Under the pieces are notes generated by a model, which was not told the origin of the DNA, made no database searches, and was given only the letters and a program-made list of their open reading frames with translations. A stretch of 64,000 bases of DNA from Lysinibacillus sphaericus OT4b.31 (GTDB taxonomy: Bacteria; Bacillota; Bacilli; Bacillales_A; Planococcaceae). The stretch spans positions 2,866,702-2,930,701 of the forward strand of contig NZ_KB933398.1 in NCBI RefSeq assembly GCF_000392615.1, given 5' to 3'. The translations under genes were made by a program, and so were the position numbers. Shown in pieces: positions 4,509-42,649 of this stretch (within the stretch, counting starts at the first letter, position 1; each line of letters starts with the position of its first letter).

Positions 4509-5093
4509 CTATGCTTGCACTCCCTTCATAAAAACTTCTACTGTATCTTGAACAAAATTTTCTTGCTGATCTTTTAGAAAATGGTTCTCCCAAATCGCAT
4601 TCGACACGAAAAAGCCAAACAATCCCGTTAAAAAAACAATCGCTTGCCCTTTTGTATCGATTTCCTTCTTCATGTGCCCCAATTCGATTAATTTTTGAAA
4701 ATAGCTGGCCAGTAAATTTTGTAGTTGACGTGTATTATTATCAGAAATTATATCTATTAACTCTGGTAATATGCTTCGATCTTGAATGGCAATAAGAAAA
4801 ATAGGTTTATTTTTCTCCATAAACGTTAAATAGCTGTGAGCAATTTGCTGCAAATCATTTTTTAAATGACCAGTCAATTCATGTAAAAAGAAATGTTCGA
4901 AGTACGGAATGTAAGAATACGTTTGAATAAGTGAATGTAATATCCCCATCTTTGTATCAAAATGACGAAAAACAGTCATCTCACTGACACCTGCTGTTAA
5001 GGCAATTTCTTTCACAGAAACATTGTTGTAACCACGTTCGGTCATCAATGCAAGTGCTGACGCTAAAATTTTGTCTGCGGTATTTTTTCTCAA
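4509..5093 (-). CDS. TetR/AcrR-family transcriptional repressor
   Basis: A 194-residue protein. The N-terminal HTH is typical: ILASALALMTERGYNNVSVK, then EIALTAGVSEMTVFRHFDTK (about residues 27-46). The remainder is the helical ligand-binding and dimer domain. It starts at a TTG with AGGAGG 7 bases upstream. It is followed by the MFS exporter it probably represses. Perfect palindrome TGTTAGT-N4-ACTAACA lies in its own upstream region and a near copy lies before the exporter, suggesting it represses both. The inducer is unknown. Confidence 0.88.
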   Translation of the reverse strand: MRKNTADKILASALALMTERGYNNVSVKEIALTAGVSEMTVFRHFDTKMGILHSLIQTYSYIPYFEHFFLHELTGHLKNDLQQIAHSYLTFMEKNKPIFLIAIQDRSILPELIDIISDNNTRQLQNLLASYFQKLIELGHMKKEIDTKGQAIVFLTGLFGFFVSNAIWENHFLKDQQENFVQDTVEVFMKGVQA

Positions 5094-24411: not shown

Positions 24412-24483
24412 GTAGAAGCCAAATAAAAACGAATATATAGGTACTCGCTCTCGCTTCAACTTCTCCCTCCGAAAAGTTTGCAT

Positions 24484-24655
24484 GCCATCAACTAAGCAGG
24501 TTTCCTGACTTAAGCTTCTTCTTACTTTCGCACCTTCCCAGTTATACTAGTGGCTTTTACGATTTCATCAGCTATTACAGTAGCGGGGGCTGTATCGGAT
24601 TCACACCGATTTCCCTATTATCTCGAATACTATCGAGCACTTATAGATGTATTTA
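24484..24655 (-). promoter_or_regulatory. Cobalamin riboswitch controlling the cob operon
   Basis: On the minus strand the aptamer core reads GGGAA..CGGTGTGAATCCG..CAGCCCCCGCTACTGTAA, then GCCACTAG..CTGGGAAGG, and the B12 box AAGTCAGGAAACCTGC near the 3' end. These are the conserved elements of the AdoCbl class. It precedes cbiW, with a terminator between, so biosynthesis is reduced when cobalamin is abundant. Confidence 0.95.
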
Positions 24656-24920
24656 TATGAAATTTTAATTGTATAAAACGTAATAGAAAACTGTTTCTAT
24701 CATAGCTTATTATTTATAAATTTCAACAATTCTTTTTTAATTTGTGAAATTTTTAGTAAAATTTCAACAAATATTTCAGGCAAAAATGTGGTTTTGCCCT
24801 TTAATTTATCATAATTTTCTATATTGAAGCTCAATTAAAAAAATTTTAATAAAAAGAGATAGCTTATTTATGGAAAATTATGTTACACTTTGTCGTGAAA
24901 TCTCACAACTTCATCTTTTT

Positions 24921-25075
24921 CGGTGCGAAGTGTCTACATTTCGCTTAAAAGGGAAGCCGGTTCAAGTCCGGCGCGGTCCCGCCACTGTACTAGGGAGTTT
25001 TATAGATAAATGTCACTGTCCAAAGGATGGGAAGGCCTATAAAATGTCGAACTAAAGCCAGGAGACCTGCCGAAA
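24921..25075 (+). promoter_or_regulatory. Cobalamin riboswitch controlling cbiMNQO
   Basis: Conserved core GGGAAGCCGGTTCAAGTCCGG, CGCGGTCCCGCCACTGTA, GGGAAGGCC and the B12 box AAGCCAGGAGACCTGCC (about 25055-25071). Runs opposite to the cob operon switch, about 270 bases away. Followed by a terminator hairpin at 25152-25177. Confidence 0.96.
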
Positions 25076-25151
25076 AACACGTGATCGTTTCAACCTACGA
25101 GGATAGGTGTGCGGCTTGGCAGATTAACATTCTATTTGCTTTTTCAGCTAT

Positions 25152-37028: not shown

Positions 37029-37140
37029 GACACACATTTAGTGCTCAATACATCCAACAGCTCCTTGTACCACAAAGAATGTTGTCTTTTACCCTTCTAA
37101 CAGCTAGAGCATAAAAACCTCCAGTTTCCTTAACATCCAG

Positions 37141-37172
37141 AAAAGTCGAATCCTATTTTGGGTTCGACTTTT
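37141..37172 (+). terminator. Terminator of the glycan cluster
   Basis: Stem AAAAGTCGAA / TTCGACTTTT with TTTTTCC after it, about 110 bases downstream of the reductase gene. Confidence 0.75.
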
Positions 37173-37175
37173 TCC

Positions 37176-37317
37176 TAATGATTATCTGAAAAATCTTTAC
37201 TTTGCCGGCATACCACGTTTAATGACTCCTTGCCAAAGCGGTCTTCAATCTGAGCCAGTATTTCCTGGGCAATACTAGGGGCATGTCTTTCCTTACTTAA
37301 TGCTGTGATATCCATAT
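37176..37317 (-). pseudogene. C-terminal fragment of an unidentified protein
   Basis: The minus strand has a frame ending MDITALSKERHAPSIAQEIL..IEDRFGKESLNVVCRQSKDF.. stop near 37179. It starts inside or beside repeat copy 2, so the N-terminal part appears to be lost. I do not recognise the family. Confidence 0.35.
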
Positions 37318-37445
37318 ACCCCGTTGATTTCCGCTACGGCGGACGCTTTTTGCGGACATCGCTTCAGTCTCCTCGTCGCTACGCTTCTGCGGGGCCTTCA
37401 GCTCATGCTATTCTTTGCTAAAGTCGCCGCCTGCACTCCAATCCA
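37318..37445 (+). repeat. GC-rich fold-back dispersed repeat, copy 2
   Basis: Similar over about 125 bases to 31906-32045: GTTGATTTCCGCTACGGCGG at the left, CTCCTCGTCGCTACGCTTC in the middle, and GTCGCCGCCTGCACTCC at the right. Lies between the orphan fragment and an IS1182-type relic. Confidence 0.85.
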
Positions 37446-37454
37446 CTAGTGTAG

Positions 37455-37795
37455 GTCAAGTTGAGCGACCAAGTATTGATCCTATTGTTCTAGTTAAAAA
37501 TGACGTTTATTCATTATGTATTTGGTATTTGTTCTAAGCGTCAGACGATGAAAGAAATCCAATCTAACATGGCGTATCGTTGGTTTTAGGATTTGGCTTT
37601 CATACCGAAGTGCCAAATTTCTTAACCTTCAGTAAAAATTATGAGATTATTAAGCGCTGACCATGTCTTTATGGATTCGACACATGTGAAAGCGAGTGCG
37701 AACAAGAACAGGCGTAAATTTGACAAGAAAATCTTGCGTAAGGAAACACGTGCATATGAGGCAAAATGGCGAGAGTAACACGCTACGAACAATTA
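37455..37795 (+). pseudogene. IS1182-family transposase remnant (N-terminal part)
   Basis: Translating across frameshifts gives RPSIDPIVLVK, then SKRQTMKEIQSNMAYRWF, GFGFHTEVPNFLTFSKNYE, and DHVFMDSTHVKASANKNRR followed by ILRKETRAYEAKWRE. These are successive blocks of IS1182-type transposases. At least one in-frame stop, several frameshifts and an internal deletion make it non-functional. The C-terminal part is missing. Confidence 0.75.
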
Positions 37796-37920
37796 TTTTT
37801 GCCGTTTTTTTACTTTTCGATGTCGCTTTTTCAAATTCATGGCAACAAATACACGTTCAATTTTTCATTGTCCACTCGGTCTTGATTCAGCAATTCTTGG
37901 TACGAATATTCCTGATAAAA

Positions 37921-38271
37921 TCGAGTAGGAGGGAGTGATTAACTCCCGACCTCTCACACCACCGTACGTACGGTTCCGTATACGGCGGTTCAATTAAGAT
38001 GAATAACGCAAAGTTTCGTAACGAACTTGCAGACTTTTCAGCCCTTGGCCATTCCAATAGGAATTGCCGAGGGTTCTGTGTAATATGGGGCTTTTTGAGA
38101 TGCGCCAGTATCCTTTTCGGGTATTACCCCATTCGTACGCTTTTCCGTATGGAACTTTTAAACGAATGAGATTCCGCGTCGCCACGGACACCCTTGCTCT
38201 TGGCTAACCTCTACTTCTGTCTTCGGGGTTCGGGACTTGCACCCTATAGTTCATACGCATGCCGGGCGCAC
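37921..38271 (-). mobile_element. Group II intron remnant, class C-like, internally deleted
   Basis: The 5' end at 38271 reads GTGCGCCCGGCATG, followed by GGGTGCAAGTCCCGAACCC and GTTAGCCAAGAGCAAGG (domain I). The 3' part holds the maturase C-terminus, then a domain V-like hairpin CCGCCGTATACGG / CCGTACGTACGGTGG and domain VI ending CCTACTCGA. Only about 350 bases of a normal 1.8-2 kb element remain. It begins within ten bases of the prpB terminator, the typical target of class C introns. Confidence 0.75.
37994..38170 (-). pseudogene. Group II intron maturase, C-terminal fragment
   Basis: The frame reads KVPYGKAYEWGNTRKGYWRISKSPILHRTLGN...LKSLQVRYETLRYSS, the conserved end of bacterial group II intron reverse transcriptase-maturases (EWGNTRKGYWR is diagnostic). 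The reverse transcriptase domain is deleted. Confidence 0.8.
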
Positions 38272-38280
38272 ATTTAAAAA

Positions 38281-38310
38281 GGTATTCGGAATAATCACAT
38301 TCCGAATACC
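38281..38310 (-). terminator. Terminator of prpB, shared sequence with 63021-63050
   Basis: GGTATTCGGAA / TTCCGAATACC stem with an eight-base loop; the minus strand continues with TTTTT. It differs at one base from the hairpin at 63021-63050. Confidence 0.8.
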
Positions 38311-38345
38311 AAAGCAATTTGTAATACTTAGACTTACAATAGACA

Positions 38346-39254
38346 TTATTGATTCATTGTTAAAACTGTTTTAGCAATATTTTTATCTAAATCTTCAAAG
38401 TCATTATAGGAAATCGTTTCATATAATTCACTTCTGGATTGCATATCCTCAATAGCTTCTTTTTGGGTTCCCGTATTTTTTATTAATTCAAATACTCGTT
38501 CATATGCTTTTGCTGCTACTCTCATTGATGTAACGGGGTAAATAACCATGGAATAGCCCATTTTTTTAAACTCCTTGGCTGTATAATAAGGTGTTTGACC
38601 AAATTCGGTCATGTTTGCTAATAATGGAGCATCTACTTCTTGTCCAAATTGTTTAAATTCTTTTTCATTTTGTAGGGCTTCTGGGAAAATAGCATCAGCT
38701 CCAGCTTCTACATAGGCTTTTGCGCGGATGAGAGCCTGTTCTAAACCTTCTACAGATCTTGCATCGGTACGCGCAATAATTACCATGGTAGGCGCTATTT
38801 GTTTAATCATTTTTATTTTTTGTATCATGTCATCTTGAGAAACGAGTGTTTTTCCATTCAAATGCCCACATTTTTTGGGTAAATTTTGATCTTCTAACTG
38901 TACGGCTGCCACTCCTGCCTCTACCATTTCACGAGCAGTGCGAGCAACATTTAATACACCACCAAAACCAGTATCGATATCCACTAGCATTGGTAAATTC
39001 GTAGCTCGGATAATGTCTCTAGCACAATCTGCTACTTCATTCGAATAAATCATGCCTAAATCAGGTAAGCCACGACTCGCTGTATACGCAGCTCCAGATA
39101 GATACAATGCCTTAAAGCCTACTTTTTTAGCCATTAAGCCGGCCATTGCATCATGAGCTCCTGGTATTTGTAAAATATTTGAACGAGTAATTAAAGCTCG
39201 AAATTGTTCTGCCAATTGTTTTTGTGAAACAGATTCATTCACAATCCACGCCAT
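38346..39254 (-). CDS. prpB: 2-methylisocitrate lyase
   Basis: 302 residues; cleaves 2-methylisocitrate to pyruvate and succinate, the last step of the methylcitrate cycle. Isocitrate-lyase/PEP-mutase family marks: FKALYLSGAAYTASRGLPD, VDIDTGFGG (metal-binding aspartates) and the active-site loop KKCGHLNGK, with VIIARTDARSVEGL downstream. Length agrees with PrpB (about 295-305). It is the last gene of a prpC-prpD-prpB unit and is followed by a strong terminator. Confidence 0.95.
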   Translation of the reverse strand: MAWIVNESVSQKQLAEQFRALITRSNILQIPGAHDAMAGLMAKKVGFKALYLSGAAYTASRGLPDLGMIYSNEVADCARDIIRATNLPMLVDIDTGFGGVLNVARTAREMVEAGVAAVQLEDQNLPKKCGHLNGKTLVSQDDMIQKIKMIKQIAPTMVIIARTDARSVEGLEQALIRAKAYVEAGADAIFPEALQNEKEFKQFGQEVDAPLLANMTEFGQTPYYTAKEFKKMGYSMVIYPVTSMRVAAKAYERVFELIKNTGTQKEAIEDMQSRSELYETISYNDFEDLDKNIAKTVLTMNQ

Positions 39255-39272: not shown

Positions 39273-40712
39273 CTATTGTTGAACAAATAAATCAACAAAT
39301 TCATGTACATAACTATTTTCGACTAGTTCTTTATCGGCACATACCTTATTTATTTTATTAGATTGTTTTTGTGAATAGTGAGTACTTATATTTTGCCGGA
39401 ATTTATCGATGATTTGAGGGAATGCTTCCTCACGTCGGAAACGATGTCCTAAAGGATATTCACACTCTACTAATTCTGACGATGTACCATCTTTGTAGTA
39501 AACCTGAACAGCATTGGCAATAGAACGTTTCTCTGGGTCTAAATAGTCGACTGTATATTGTGAATTTTCAACAATAACCATTTTTTTTCTCAGTTCATCT
39601 ATGCGTGGATCAGCAGCCACGTTATCTTCATAATGGTCTGCCGTAATATCACCAAAGATTAGCCCAATTGCTGTAATGTATTGAATACAGTGATCACGAT
39701 CAGCTGGATTATTTAGCGGTCCCTCTTTATCGATGATACGAATGGCTGATTCATGTGTCGTAAGCTGAATTTTTTCAATATCATCTAAGCGATTTGTCAC
39801 TTCATGATGTAAATGTACGGCACATTCCGCAGCAGTTTGCGCATGAAATTCAGCTGGGAAAGAAACTTTAAAAAGAACATTTTCCATGACATAAGAGGCA
39901 AGCGGTCTTGCAAGCTTTAATTCTTGTTTGTTAAAGAGCACATCTTGGAATCCCCAGCCAGGTGCAGATAATGCAGTTGCATACCCCATTTCCCCCTTCA
40001 CGGCCATCATGGCTAATTGTACTGCCCTACTTGTTGCATCTCCAGCAGCCCAAGATTTTCTTGATCCTGTATTAGGTGTATGTCGATATGTTCTTAGGCT
40101 TGAATTATCAATCCAAGCATTTGACAATGCATTAATTATTTCTTGACGAGATCCCCCTAATACCTTTGTCACAACAGCTGTTGTAGCAATTTTGACATAT
40201 AATACGTGATCTAACCCAACACGATTCAGGCTATTTTCTAGAGCTAAAACGCCTTGTATTTCATGGGCTTGTATCATCATTTCTAAAACGTCTTTCATTT
40301 TAAAAGGCTCTTTACCTTCTGCAATACGTACGCGACTCAAATAATCTGCAACGGCCAAAATACCACCTAAATTATCAGAAGGATGTCCCCATTCAGCCGC
40401 CAGCCATGTATCATTGTAATCTAACCAACGAATCATGCATCCAATATTGAAAGCCCCTTTCACTGGATCAAGGACATAAGAAGTTCCTGGGACACGTGAA
40501 CCATTTGGAACTACTGTACCTTGAACAACAGGTCCAAGGAGTTTCGTACATTCTGGGTACTGTAAGGCCAAAATGCCGCAACCCAAAGTATCTAGTAAAA
40601 CATAGCGTGCAGTTTCATATGCTTCTTCACTTGTAATGTTAGTATTTAATACATAATCCGCGATATCTGTTAATAATTGATCTGTCGTAGATATTTCATT
40701 CGTTTTAATCAT
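39273..40712 (-). CDS. prpD: 2-methylcitrate dehydratase
   Basis: 479 residues of the MmgE/PrpD family; dehydrates 2-methylcitrate to 2-methylaconitate. Typical segments: [57 protein letters not shown], and [22 protein letters not shown]. No iron-sulfur motif, as expected. Sits between prpC and prpB on the same strand with short gaps (97 and 18 bases), so one transcript is likely. B. subtilis calls the counterpart MmgE. Confidence 0.95.
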
Positions 40713-40809: not shown

Positions 40810-41931
40810 TTACACTGTTAGTTCTTCAAGGTTATGACGCTCGCCAATATAAGTGACACGAGGTCTAAACAACCTATTATTCTCATGCTGTTCAATCACA
40901 TGAGCACATAAGCCGACAGTACGTGAGCTAAAGAAAATTGGCGTATACATTTCAATAGGCAATCCAAGCATGTAATATACGGGAGCTGCGTAATAATCTA
41001 AATTTGGATACAATCCTTTTTCCTGCACCATCATTTTTTCACCGACTTCACACATGCGATATAATAGATCATCTCCTTGCTCTATACATAATTTGTGTAA
41101 AGCCTCTTTCATAATTTGCGCTCTTGGGTCCATTTTTTTCATATACACACGATGGCCAAAGCCCATAATCTTTTCTTTGTTCTGCAGTTTATTTTTCAGC
41201 AATGTTTCAAAGCCTTCCACTGTCTTGGCTTCAAGAAGCATATACATCACTGCCTCGTTCGCTCCGCCATGCAAATTTCCTTTCAATGATGCTACAGCTC
41301 CAGTTAAAGCACCGTACAAATCAGATTGTGTAGAGGCAATGACACGGGCCGTAAACGTTGAATTGGGCATCTCATGTTCACTATATAAAACGAGCGATTG
41401 ATCAAAGATTTCTTCTTCTAACGCAGTTGGTTTTCTTCCAGTAATCATGTAATAAAAATTGGCACTATAAGAAAGCTGACTATCTGTCTCTACGACCTCT
41501 TGACCATTCAACACACGATAGCTATTCGCTACGATATTTGGCATACCGCCTAAAAGCCTAAATGCTCGCTTCAAATTCATTTCAGTAGACCGATCATGGA
41601 TTTGCTGATCGTAGCCTGCTAATATAGAAATACCTGTTCTAAGCCCATCCATAGCATGTGTCCCATTAGGTAATAACTTGAAAATTTGAAAAATCTCTTG
41701 TGGAACTTGATAACTTGATTTCAAAATGTCCTGTAACTCACCCCGTTGCTCAGTAGTCGGTATTTCTCCATGCAACAATAAGTACACAATGTCTAAATAC
41801 GAATATCTCTGTGATAATTCAATCAAATCATAGCCCCTTATGACAATTTGACTTTGTACAGTATCTAAAAAAGATAATTTCGTCTCAGCGGCAATAATGC
41901 CATCGAGACCTGGTGAATAGTTTAACTCCAT
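40810..41931 (-). CDS. prpC: 2-methylcitrate synthase (citrate synthase family)
   Basis: About 373 residues from the ATG at 41931, with AAGGGG nine bases upstream; the longer frame lacks a site. Condenses propionyl-CoA with oxaloacetate. Citrate synthase features: ELNYSPGLDGIIAAETKLS, catalytic His in LKGNLHGGANEAVM, the His of GFGHRVYMKKMDPRA, and the Asp of NLDYYAAPVYYMLG. Short form typical of Gram-positive MmgD/PrpC. First gene of the operon, directly after a cobalamin riboswitch and terminator. Its specificity for propionyl-CoA is inferred from the prpD and prpB partners. Confidence 0.92.
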   Translation of the reverse strand: MELNYSPGLDGIIAAETKLSFLDTVQSQIVIRGYDLIELSQRYSYLDIVYLLLHGEIPTTEQRGELQDILKSSYQVPQEIFQIFKLLPNGTHAMDGLRTGISILAGYDQQIHDRSTEMNLKRAFRLLGGMPNIVANSYRVLNGQEVVETDSQLSYSANFYYMITGRKPTALEEEIFDQSLVLYSEHEMPNSTFTARVIASTQSDLYGALTGAVASLKGNLHGGANEAVMYMLLEAKTVEGFETLLKNKLQNKEKIMGFGHRVYMKKMDPRAQIMKEALHKLCIEQGDDLLYRMCEVGEKMMVQEKGLYPNLDYYAAPVYYMLGLPIEMYTPIFFSSRTVGLCAHVIEQHENNRLFRPRVTYIGERHNLEELTV

Positions 41932-42000
41932 ACATTCCAACCCCTTTGTTTTATCATTCTTGTAAGCGTTCACATTCATCGACAAAAGAACAACAAAAAA

Positions 42001-42027
42001 ACAACTTCTACCCCTTTTAGAAGTTGT
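42001..42027 (-). terminator. Terminator in the prpCDB leader
   Basis: Stem ACAACTTCTA / TAGAAGTTGT, followed on the minus strand by TTTTTTTTG. It lies between the riboswitch and prpC and is the probable expression platform. Confidence 0.85.
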
Positions 42028-42129
42028 TAATCTACAAAAACATGACAGAGCAAAAAACAGTGAATTTAAACGAATTCACAACCATCATACAGTAGCTAAC
42101 ACCCCCTATCCTCGTAGGTACATTGATGC

Positions 42130-42307
42130 TTTCTTTAGTGGCAGGTCTCCTGACTTATGATCAACGTTACAATAACACCTTCCCATTTTGACAATCAAAA
42201 CAGTGGTATTGTTATCTAACTCCCAAATACAGTTGCGGGACAGTGTTGGACTCTCACCAACTTCCCTTTTAATCAAATGAAATATATTCATTTGAACCAC
42301 CAAAATT
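42130..42307 (-). promoter_or_regulatory. Cobalamin riboswitch upstream of the methylcitrate operon
   Basis: Minus-strand core: GGGAAGTTGGTGAGAGTCC, ACACTGTCCCGCAACTGTA, GGGAAGGTG and B12 box AAGTCAGGAGACCTGCC (complement at 42140-42156). P1 arms TTGGTGG and CCACTAA close the aptamer. A terminator lies between it and prpC. Therefore prpC-prpD-prpB should be turned down by adenosylcobalamin. Confidence 0.95.
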
Positions 42308-42649
42308 TAGCATATTCAATTTGTCTTTCAACCTTAACATAGAGGCTCAAAAACAAGCAATATAGACAAAATTCAGAAAAAACAAATAACTAAAAACTAT
42401 TCTTCTTATTCAAAAGACTATTCTACATTTTTTAGCATTATTTCTCACAAAAAAGATTATTATTCCCTCGATTGAAAATGATTTAATTAACTTAATACTC
42501 AATGAATGTACGTACATACATTCGCTATAAATATATTAGTCGTTAACTAATCAACTTTTATATATGTTTTTTCTCTATCCTACGTCAAGGTATTTCTTGG
42601 AATATAACAGGACCTAATGTTAGTTAAATTACTTTGAAATCTTTTCATT
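42308..42649. other. AT-rich gap with one palindrome
   Basis: Contains the promoter region for the riboswitch-led prp transcript and, at 42504-42523, an inverted repeat GAATGTA-N6-TACATTC that could be a protein site. No coding content seen. Confidence 0.4.

Follow-up and report, generated by a model that had tools for sequence, protein, structure and literature searches.

Very probably, the methylcitrate cycle operon prpC-prpD-prpB (prpCDB) of Lysinibacillus sphaericus OT4b.31 is shut off by a cobalamin riboswitch acting through transcription termination, and propionyl-CoA would then be left to the B12-dependent methylmalonyl-CoA mutase route. The aptamer and the termination platform ahead of prpCDB are, on the sequence evidence, real and well supported, and the comparative case for a route-choosing purpose appears good; the ligand, the direction of the response and the physiological purpose of the switch are what we infer. 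A first-pass annotation of this DNA had already read the leader as B12 control of the methylcitrate cycle genes, an interpretation that is supported in being consistent with the sequence evidence. If true, the control exerted by B12 riboswitches would reach from single isozymes (metE, nrd) to an entire alternative catabolic pathway, and there would be a simple genetic rule for the use of the methylcitrate cycle versus the mutase route in these bacteria.

The prpC leader and the operon behind it

Within the window (the whole stretch of DNA that was analysed, 64 kb) the following features were recognized, all on the minus strand:

42123..42316 (-): cobalamin riboswitch aptamer, full-length RF00174 architecture (cmscan)
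42099..42129 (-): P13-type hairpin (pairing over 27 leaders)
42096..42106 (-): antiterminator 5' segment, overlapping the P13 3' strands and able to pair with 42030-42020
42020..42030 (-): antiterminator 3' segment, including the terminator 5' arm 42028-42020
42000..42028 (-): Rho-independent terminator hairpin, with a T run (41999-41995) downstream
40810..41931 (-): prpC, (methyl)citrate synthase (NCBIfam NF009004)
39273..40712 (-): prpD, 2-methylcitrate dehydratase (TIGR02330, 881.8 bits, cut-off 458)
38346..39254 (-): prpB, methylisocitrate lyase (TIGR02317, 420.9 bits, cut-off 354.4)
38281..38310 (-): terminator-like hairpin after prpB (13 pairs and a T run)

The aptamer (42316-42123; C1:2908824-2909017 in genome coordinates) matched the covariance model RF00174 from end to end (model positions 1-189 of 189) with a score of 115.9 bits and an E-value of 2.4e-28, the gathering score being 31.5 bits. 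It lies in the 5' leader of prpC and on the same strand, its 3' end (42123) preceding the ATG at 41931 by 192 bases. Given this score and the recurrence of the arrangement ahead of prpC in further genera, a chance origin can be excluded. Considering its full-length architecture, we take the aptamer to be probably of the adenosylcobalamin-binding class. Both elements that the first-pass annotation had placed at 42001-42307, a cobalamin aptamer and a separate terminator ahead of prpC, were thus recovered, and that interval covers the terminator and almost the entire aptamer.

The listed reading frame of prpC opens at a TTG (41985); the ATG at 41931 was chosen as the start since matches to orthologues begin there. 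PrpC scored 686.4 bits against NF009004, a model named citrate synthase (cut-off 508), and 408.3 bits against TIGR01800, the 2-methylcitrate synthase subfamily, which is 13 under the cut-off of 421.3. We take the protein to be a homologue of Bacillus subtilis MmgD, and its predicted role as a methylcitrate synthase rests on this homology and on the operon context. PrpD and PrpB both scored above the NCBIfam equivalog cut-offs. The hairpin at 38310-38281 is the probable end of the operon. A DNA polymerase IV gene is located upstream of the prpC locus, and no regulator was found among the neighbouring ORFs of at least 100 amino acids on either side of prpC-prpD-prpB in the window. Downstream of prpB no ORF of at least 100 amino acids occurs for 1.3 kb (37029-38345); this ORF-poor gap contains a match to a group II intron (37920-37990 (-), 47.8 bits).

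Expression platform

Alignment of the leader, B12 box through T run, with those of 26 named loci that carry a strong aptamer (27 leaders in total) defined two folds that are mutually exclusive because they have a strand in common. The first consists of P13, with an outer stem (42129-42125 with 42103-42099), an inner stem (42118-42115 with 42108-42105) and a loop (42114-42109), and the terminator hairpin 42028-42000, with 11 pairs, a loop of 7 bases and the T run. Over the 27 leaders, 99.8% of the 486 cells of P13 and terminator pair. Both bases have changed in three of the pairs, which 1 of 500 shuffles matched, while additional pair types were no more numerous than in shuffles (128/500). The terminator stem is preserved throughout, with two of its pairs altered on both sides, and the loop at P13 is conserved across the aligned leaders. 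The fold of 41990-42060 was equalled or bettered by only 5 of 200 shuffles. From the terminator end to the prpC start codon there are about 70 bases in the window leader and about 65 in Lysinibacillus leaders.

The second fold is the antiterminator helix, in which 91.2% of 296 cells pair, with one position mismatched in 25 of the 27 leaders. Sliding the helix by 1-3 columns lowers the pairing to 41-70%. A single pair has both of its bases altered, in two sequences, and as 75 of 500 shuffles reach this, the covariation is weak and the proposed helix is argued for by its conservation. With the aptamer left out, the antiterminator fold had the lower energy in the window leader and in L078, and the P13-plus-terminator (OFF) fold in the other 25 of the 27 leaders. 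An antiterminator formed by the aptamer's own GGGAAG/P5 strand was also considered; it ranked with the best duplexes in the majority of 15 leaders examined and outside the three best in L068, L120, L126 and L127, and it was set aside given that the rival helix with the P13 3' strand persists across the alignment.

On this basis the switch would operate as follows. Without B12, 42106-42096 would pair with 42030-42020, blocking the terminator, and the methylcitrate cycle would be made. With B12 bound, the aptamer would close and stabilise P13, which would capture strand 42106-42096; the terminator would then form, prpCDB would be off, and propionyl-CoA would pass through the B12-dependent carboxylase/epimerase/mutase route.

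A promoter scan gave sites no more numerous than in shuffles, and no promoter was assigned. Near matches to the CcpA cre consensus were seen between terminator and prpC; in long leaders the candidates fall within conserved codons of a small ORF, and a cre site is not claimed. This small ORF, of about 70-90 amino acids, is conserved in loci with a long leader (L063, L068, L071-L074, L076-L079, L096, L105, L120, L126 and L127, at about 4680-5045), placed after the riboswitch terminator and ahead of prpC; one of these loci (L105) has no aptamer. Its consensus starts with MFGTVxYF, continues with FKxxIMNN and ends with LEKAYxxVxxExFG, and no Pfam match above cut-off was obtained in the six members scanned. 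The Lysinibacillus leaders have no room for it, as the gap between terminator and start is too short.

The B12-dependent route and the distribution of the aptamer

The genome of OT4b.31 (4.86 Mb) holds, around 15-18 kb past the window end, two adjacent methylmalonyl-CoA mutase genes, followed on the same strand by genes for MeaB and a bacilliredoxin, an ORF that matched no NCBIfam model, and genes for methylmalonyl-CoA epimerase and a carboxyltransferase. The large mutase subunit (NF006944, 1282.5 bits, cut-off 876), MeaB and the epimerase scored above their cut-offs; the small subunit (245 bits) and the carboxyltransferase (TIGR01117, 830 bits) remained under those of their best specific models (617 and 999, respectively). 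Judged by these matches, the genes expected for the B12-dependent propionate route are present, the biotin subunit of the carboxylase, which was not sought, aside. A mutase gene cluster for the alternative route that the first-pass annotation had called for is thus present. No cobalamin aptamer occurs in the 15 kb stretch with this cluster.

The nearest PrpC, with 93% identity, is that of L. xylanilyticus. Nine of 41 close genomes encode a PrpC of at least 88% identity and all nine carry the aptamer upstream; it was not found, among these 41, at a broken prpC copy (L037) or at three homologues of 54-59%. The arrangement is therefore conserved in related Lysinibacillus, as had been proposed for checking, and also in other genera. 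In a draw of 200 genomes of the family, which overlaps the 41, a PrpC of at least 63% identity was present in 15, with an upstream nhmmer match in 13 (not L133 and L135). L133 (G081) is, by its coordinates, apparently the same locus as L059; its one stop is at the C-terminal end and it was not counted as broken.

A pattern scan of named genomes provided the best 80 of 124 relatives, in 79 of which prpC is followed by prpD and prpB (the exception being L068). Of these 80 loci, 26 have a strong aptamer (106.8-120 bits), three a marginal one (L057, 32.9; L058, 35.6; L109, 32.1 bits; gathering score 31.5) and 51 none by nhmmer; ten of the latter were re-examined with Rfam, the other 41 were classified by nhmmer alone, and one (L067) has only 701 bases upstream. 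The strong aptamers include those of Lysinibacillus, Kurthia, Rummeliibacillus, Peribacillus, Psychrobacillus, Cytobacillus, Siminovitchia, Sutcliffiella, Gottfriedia, Halobacillus, Anoxybacillus, Bacillus and Brevibacillus (metagenome assembly). The three marginal leaders gave no match to the B12-box pattern and have altered core letters; to go by their letters, these are decayed aptamers.

A search for mutase in 77 of the 80 genomes (L113, L115 and L118 left out; full-scoring matches being over 765 bits) recovered it in 26 of the 26 with a strong aptamer and in 9 of the 51 searched that lack a strong one, namely in 9/48 with no aptamer (L059, L061, L066, L082, L085, L088, L104, L110 and L114) and in 0/3 with a decayed one. 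Each decayed-aptamer genome has one mutase-family match (417-424 bits), whose open frame spans 1081-1092 amino acids and which by length and score we judged to be of the long IcmF-like kind, so these organisms are probably still B12 users. In a class-wide draw of 398 genomes, which partly overlaps the named set, 40 had PrpC (E-value no higher than 1e-110); with an E-value limit of 1e-200, mutase was found in all 11 with an aptamer versus 2 of 29 without (G038 and G562), two of these 29 (L172 and L173) being cut-off leaders at a contig edge. When pooled, leaving out duplicates (L152, L159 and L161), the two contig-edge loci and three loci without mutase data, mutase occurs in 35/35 rows with a strong aptamer and in 11/76 without, counts that are inflated by kinship. 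As mutase is present in these 11 aptamer-less rows, the switch is not obligatory. Phylogenetically independent pairs that contrast an aptamer-bearing with an aptamer-less locus number 5 on starred branches and 8 on all; of those on starred branches about 4 agree with the link to mutase and none opposes it (sign test p 0.125), a unanimous but small set that is not significant alone. That the element exists in intact, decayed and absent versions, paired with genomes that have or lack mutase, amounts to a natural experiment.

One might argue that the mechanism is as described and that its purpose is general corrinoid economy, the link with mutase merely reflecting B12-rich genomes that keep both. 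The abundance of B12 riboswitches in the genus (15 in OT4b.31 and 6-16 in 25 same-genus genomes, OT4b.31 included) and the small number of independent contrasts fit this explanation, which shares its mechanism with the preferred one, so that their odds overlap. Nevertheless, we consider it unlikely, given the presence of mutase in every strong-aptamer row and the decay of the prpC aptamer in three probable B12 users with only an IcmF-like match.

Protein regulators do occupy the equivalent spot elsewhere. The upstream ORFs scanned at ten aptamer-less loci included four of LysR type, divergent from prpC (L075, L082, L086 and L104), two of XylR_N/V4R/PucR type (L061 and L066, both mutase-bearing) and four non-regulators (L059, L065, L118 and L121). 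This would suit an aptamer that is a relic, in an operon controlled by a propionate-sensing protein with B12 hardly relevant. Such a reading is highly improbable considering that several genera keep the aptamer together with P13, the terminator and the competing strand, that the three decayed aptamers seen are all in genomes lacking mutase, and that the window ORFs of at least 100 amino acids adjoining the operon include no regulator. Least probable of all is that B12 turns prpCDB on or that the switch acts on translation, as the antiterminator fold of the aptamer-free window leader might suggest, since some 70 bases separate the end of the terminator hairpin from the start codon and the accessible part of PMC9600662 ties P13, rather than an antiterminator, to the bound aptamer via an L5-L13 kissing loop.

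Returning to the riboswitch as a selector between the two propionate routes, we lean slightly towards extending it to many Bacilli: the element would be a dedicated pathway selector, ancestral or spread, that is kept only together with mutase and decays upon its loss, control being exerted elsewhere by LysR- or XylR_N/PucR-type proteins, with B12 and not propionate as the main signal.

Known systems and other cobalamin riboswitches of the genome

The Bacillus subtilis group and Oceanobacillus/Virgibacillus relatives with a LysR-linked prpCDB possess homologous prpC, prpD and prpB genes in the same order (mmgD-mmgE-yqiQ in the former), but no aptamer was found upstream of their prpC; the B. subtilis group genomes of the named set gave no mutase match. 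A parallel in logic is the metE/metH pair: a metE cobalamin riboswitch was tested experimentally for Priestia megaterium (PMC9600662, in the part accessible, which makes no mention of prp, propion or citrate). When metH is lost under the control of a metE switch, B12 is reported to impair growth (PMC12713380). The aptamer family is the same and both switches would silence a B12-free enzyme when a B12-dependent one can work, but prpCDB is a three-gene pathway rather than a one-to-one isozyme, and the alternative route makes different products. For Bacillus methanolicus, switches are predicted on cobalamin genes, metE and nrdAB (PMC4342826, accessible portion); the last likewise places a B12-free enzyme under a cobalamin riboswitch, but in another pathway. 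In Mycobacterium tuberculosis B12 lowers prpDC and metE expression (PMC10924821), a likeness as far as the methylcitrate cycle is concerned, but there PrpR is described as regulating prpDC, and in the texts consulted riboswitches are placed before metE, PPE2 and rpfB, not prpC.

Among the targets of cobalamin riboswitches, isozymes of B12-dependent enzymes are named as a category only (Sun et al. 2013, PMC3766115), and the main text of that paper, as distinct from its supplementary target lists, has no occurrence of methylcitrate, propionate or prp. PMC2211319 discusses metE and a desaturase, and PMC11774034 scores the methylcitrate pathway as a cobamide-independent form (both according to excerpts). 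No paper stating that a cobalamin riboswitch precedes prpC was found in the accessible texts of the open-access literature, the scope of the search (subscription papers, supplements, RegPrecise and RiboD being outside it). As far as searched, prpCDB is an addition to the targets known for this class of regulator.

Elsewhere in the OT4b.31 genome cobalamin aptamers lie ahead of a metE-like ORF and of an ORF for the alpha subunit of a class I ribonucleotide reductase, which counts in favour of the preferred reading; each ORF is partial, being cut by the locus end. Three cobalamin riboswitches were detected by cmscan in the window, the prpC leader element among them; two lie back to back (24479-24657 (-) and 24904-25088 (+)), one preceding a cobalamin synthesis operon and the other cbiM. 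The L002 aptamer (C12, 33554-33743), near a contig end and with 125.5 bits equal in score to that of L001, is found about 125 bases ahead of an ORF similar to tyrosine recombinases of the XerC/XerD type, possibly reflecting a mobile element inserted behind the riboswitch. The L005 aptamer precedes a 268-amino-acid ORF without NCBIfam match, and the second ORF downstream of the L013 aptamer resembles the binding protein of a nickel/opine-type metal transporter.
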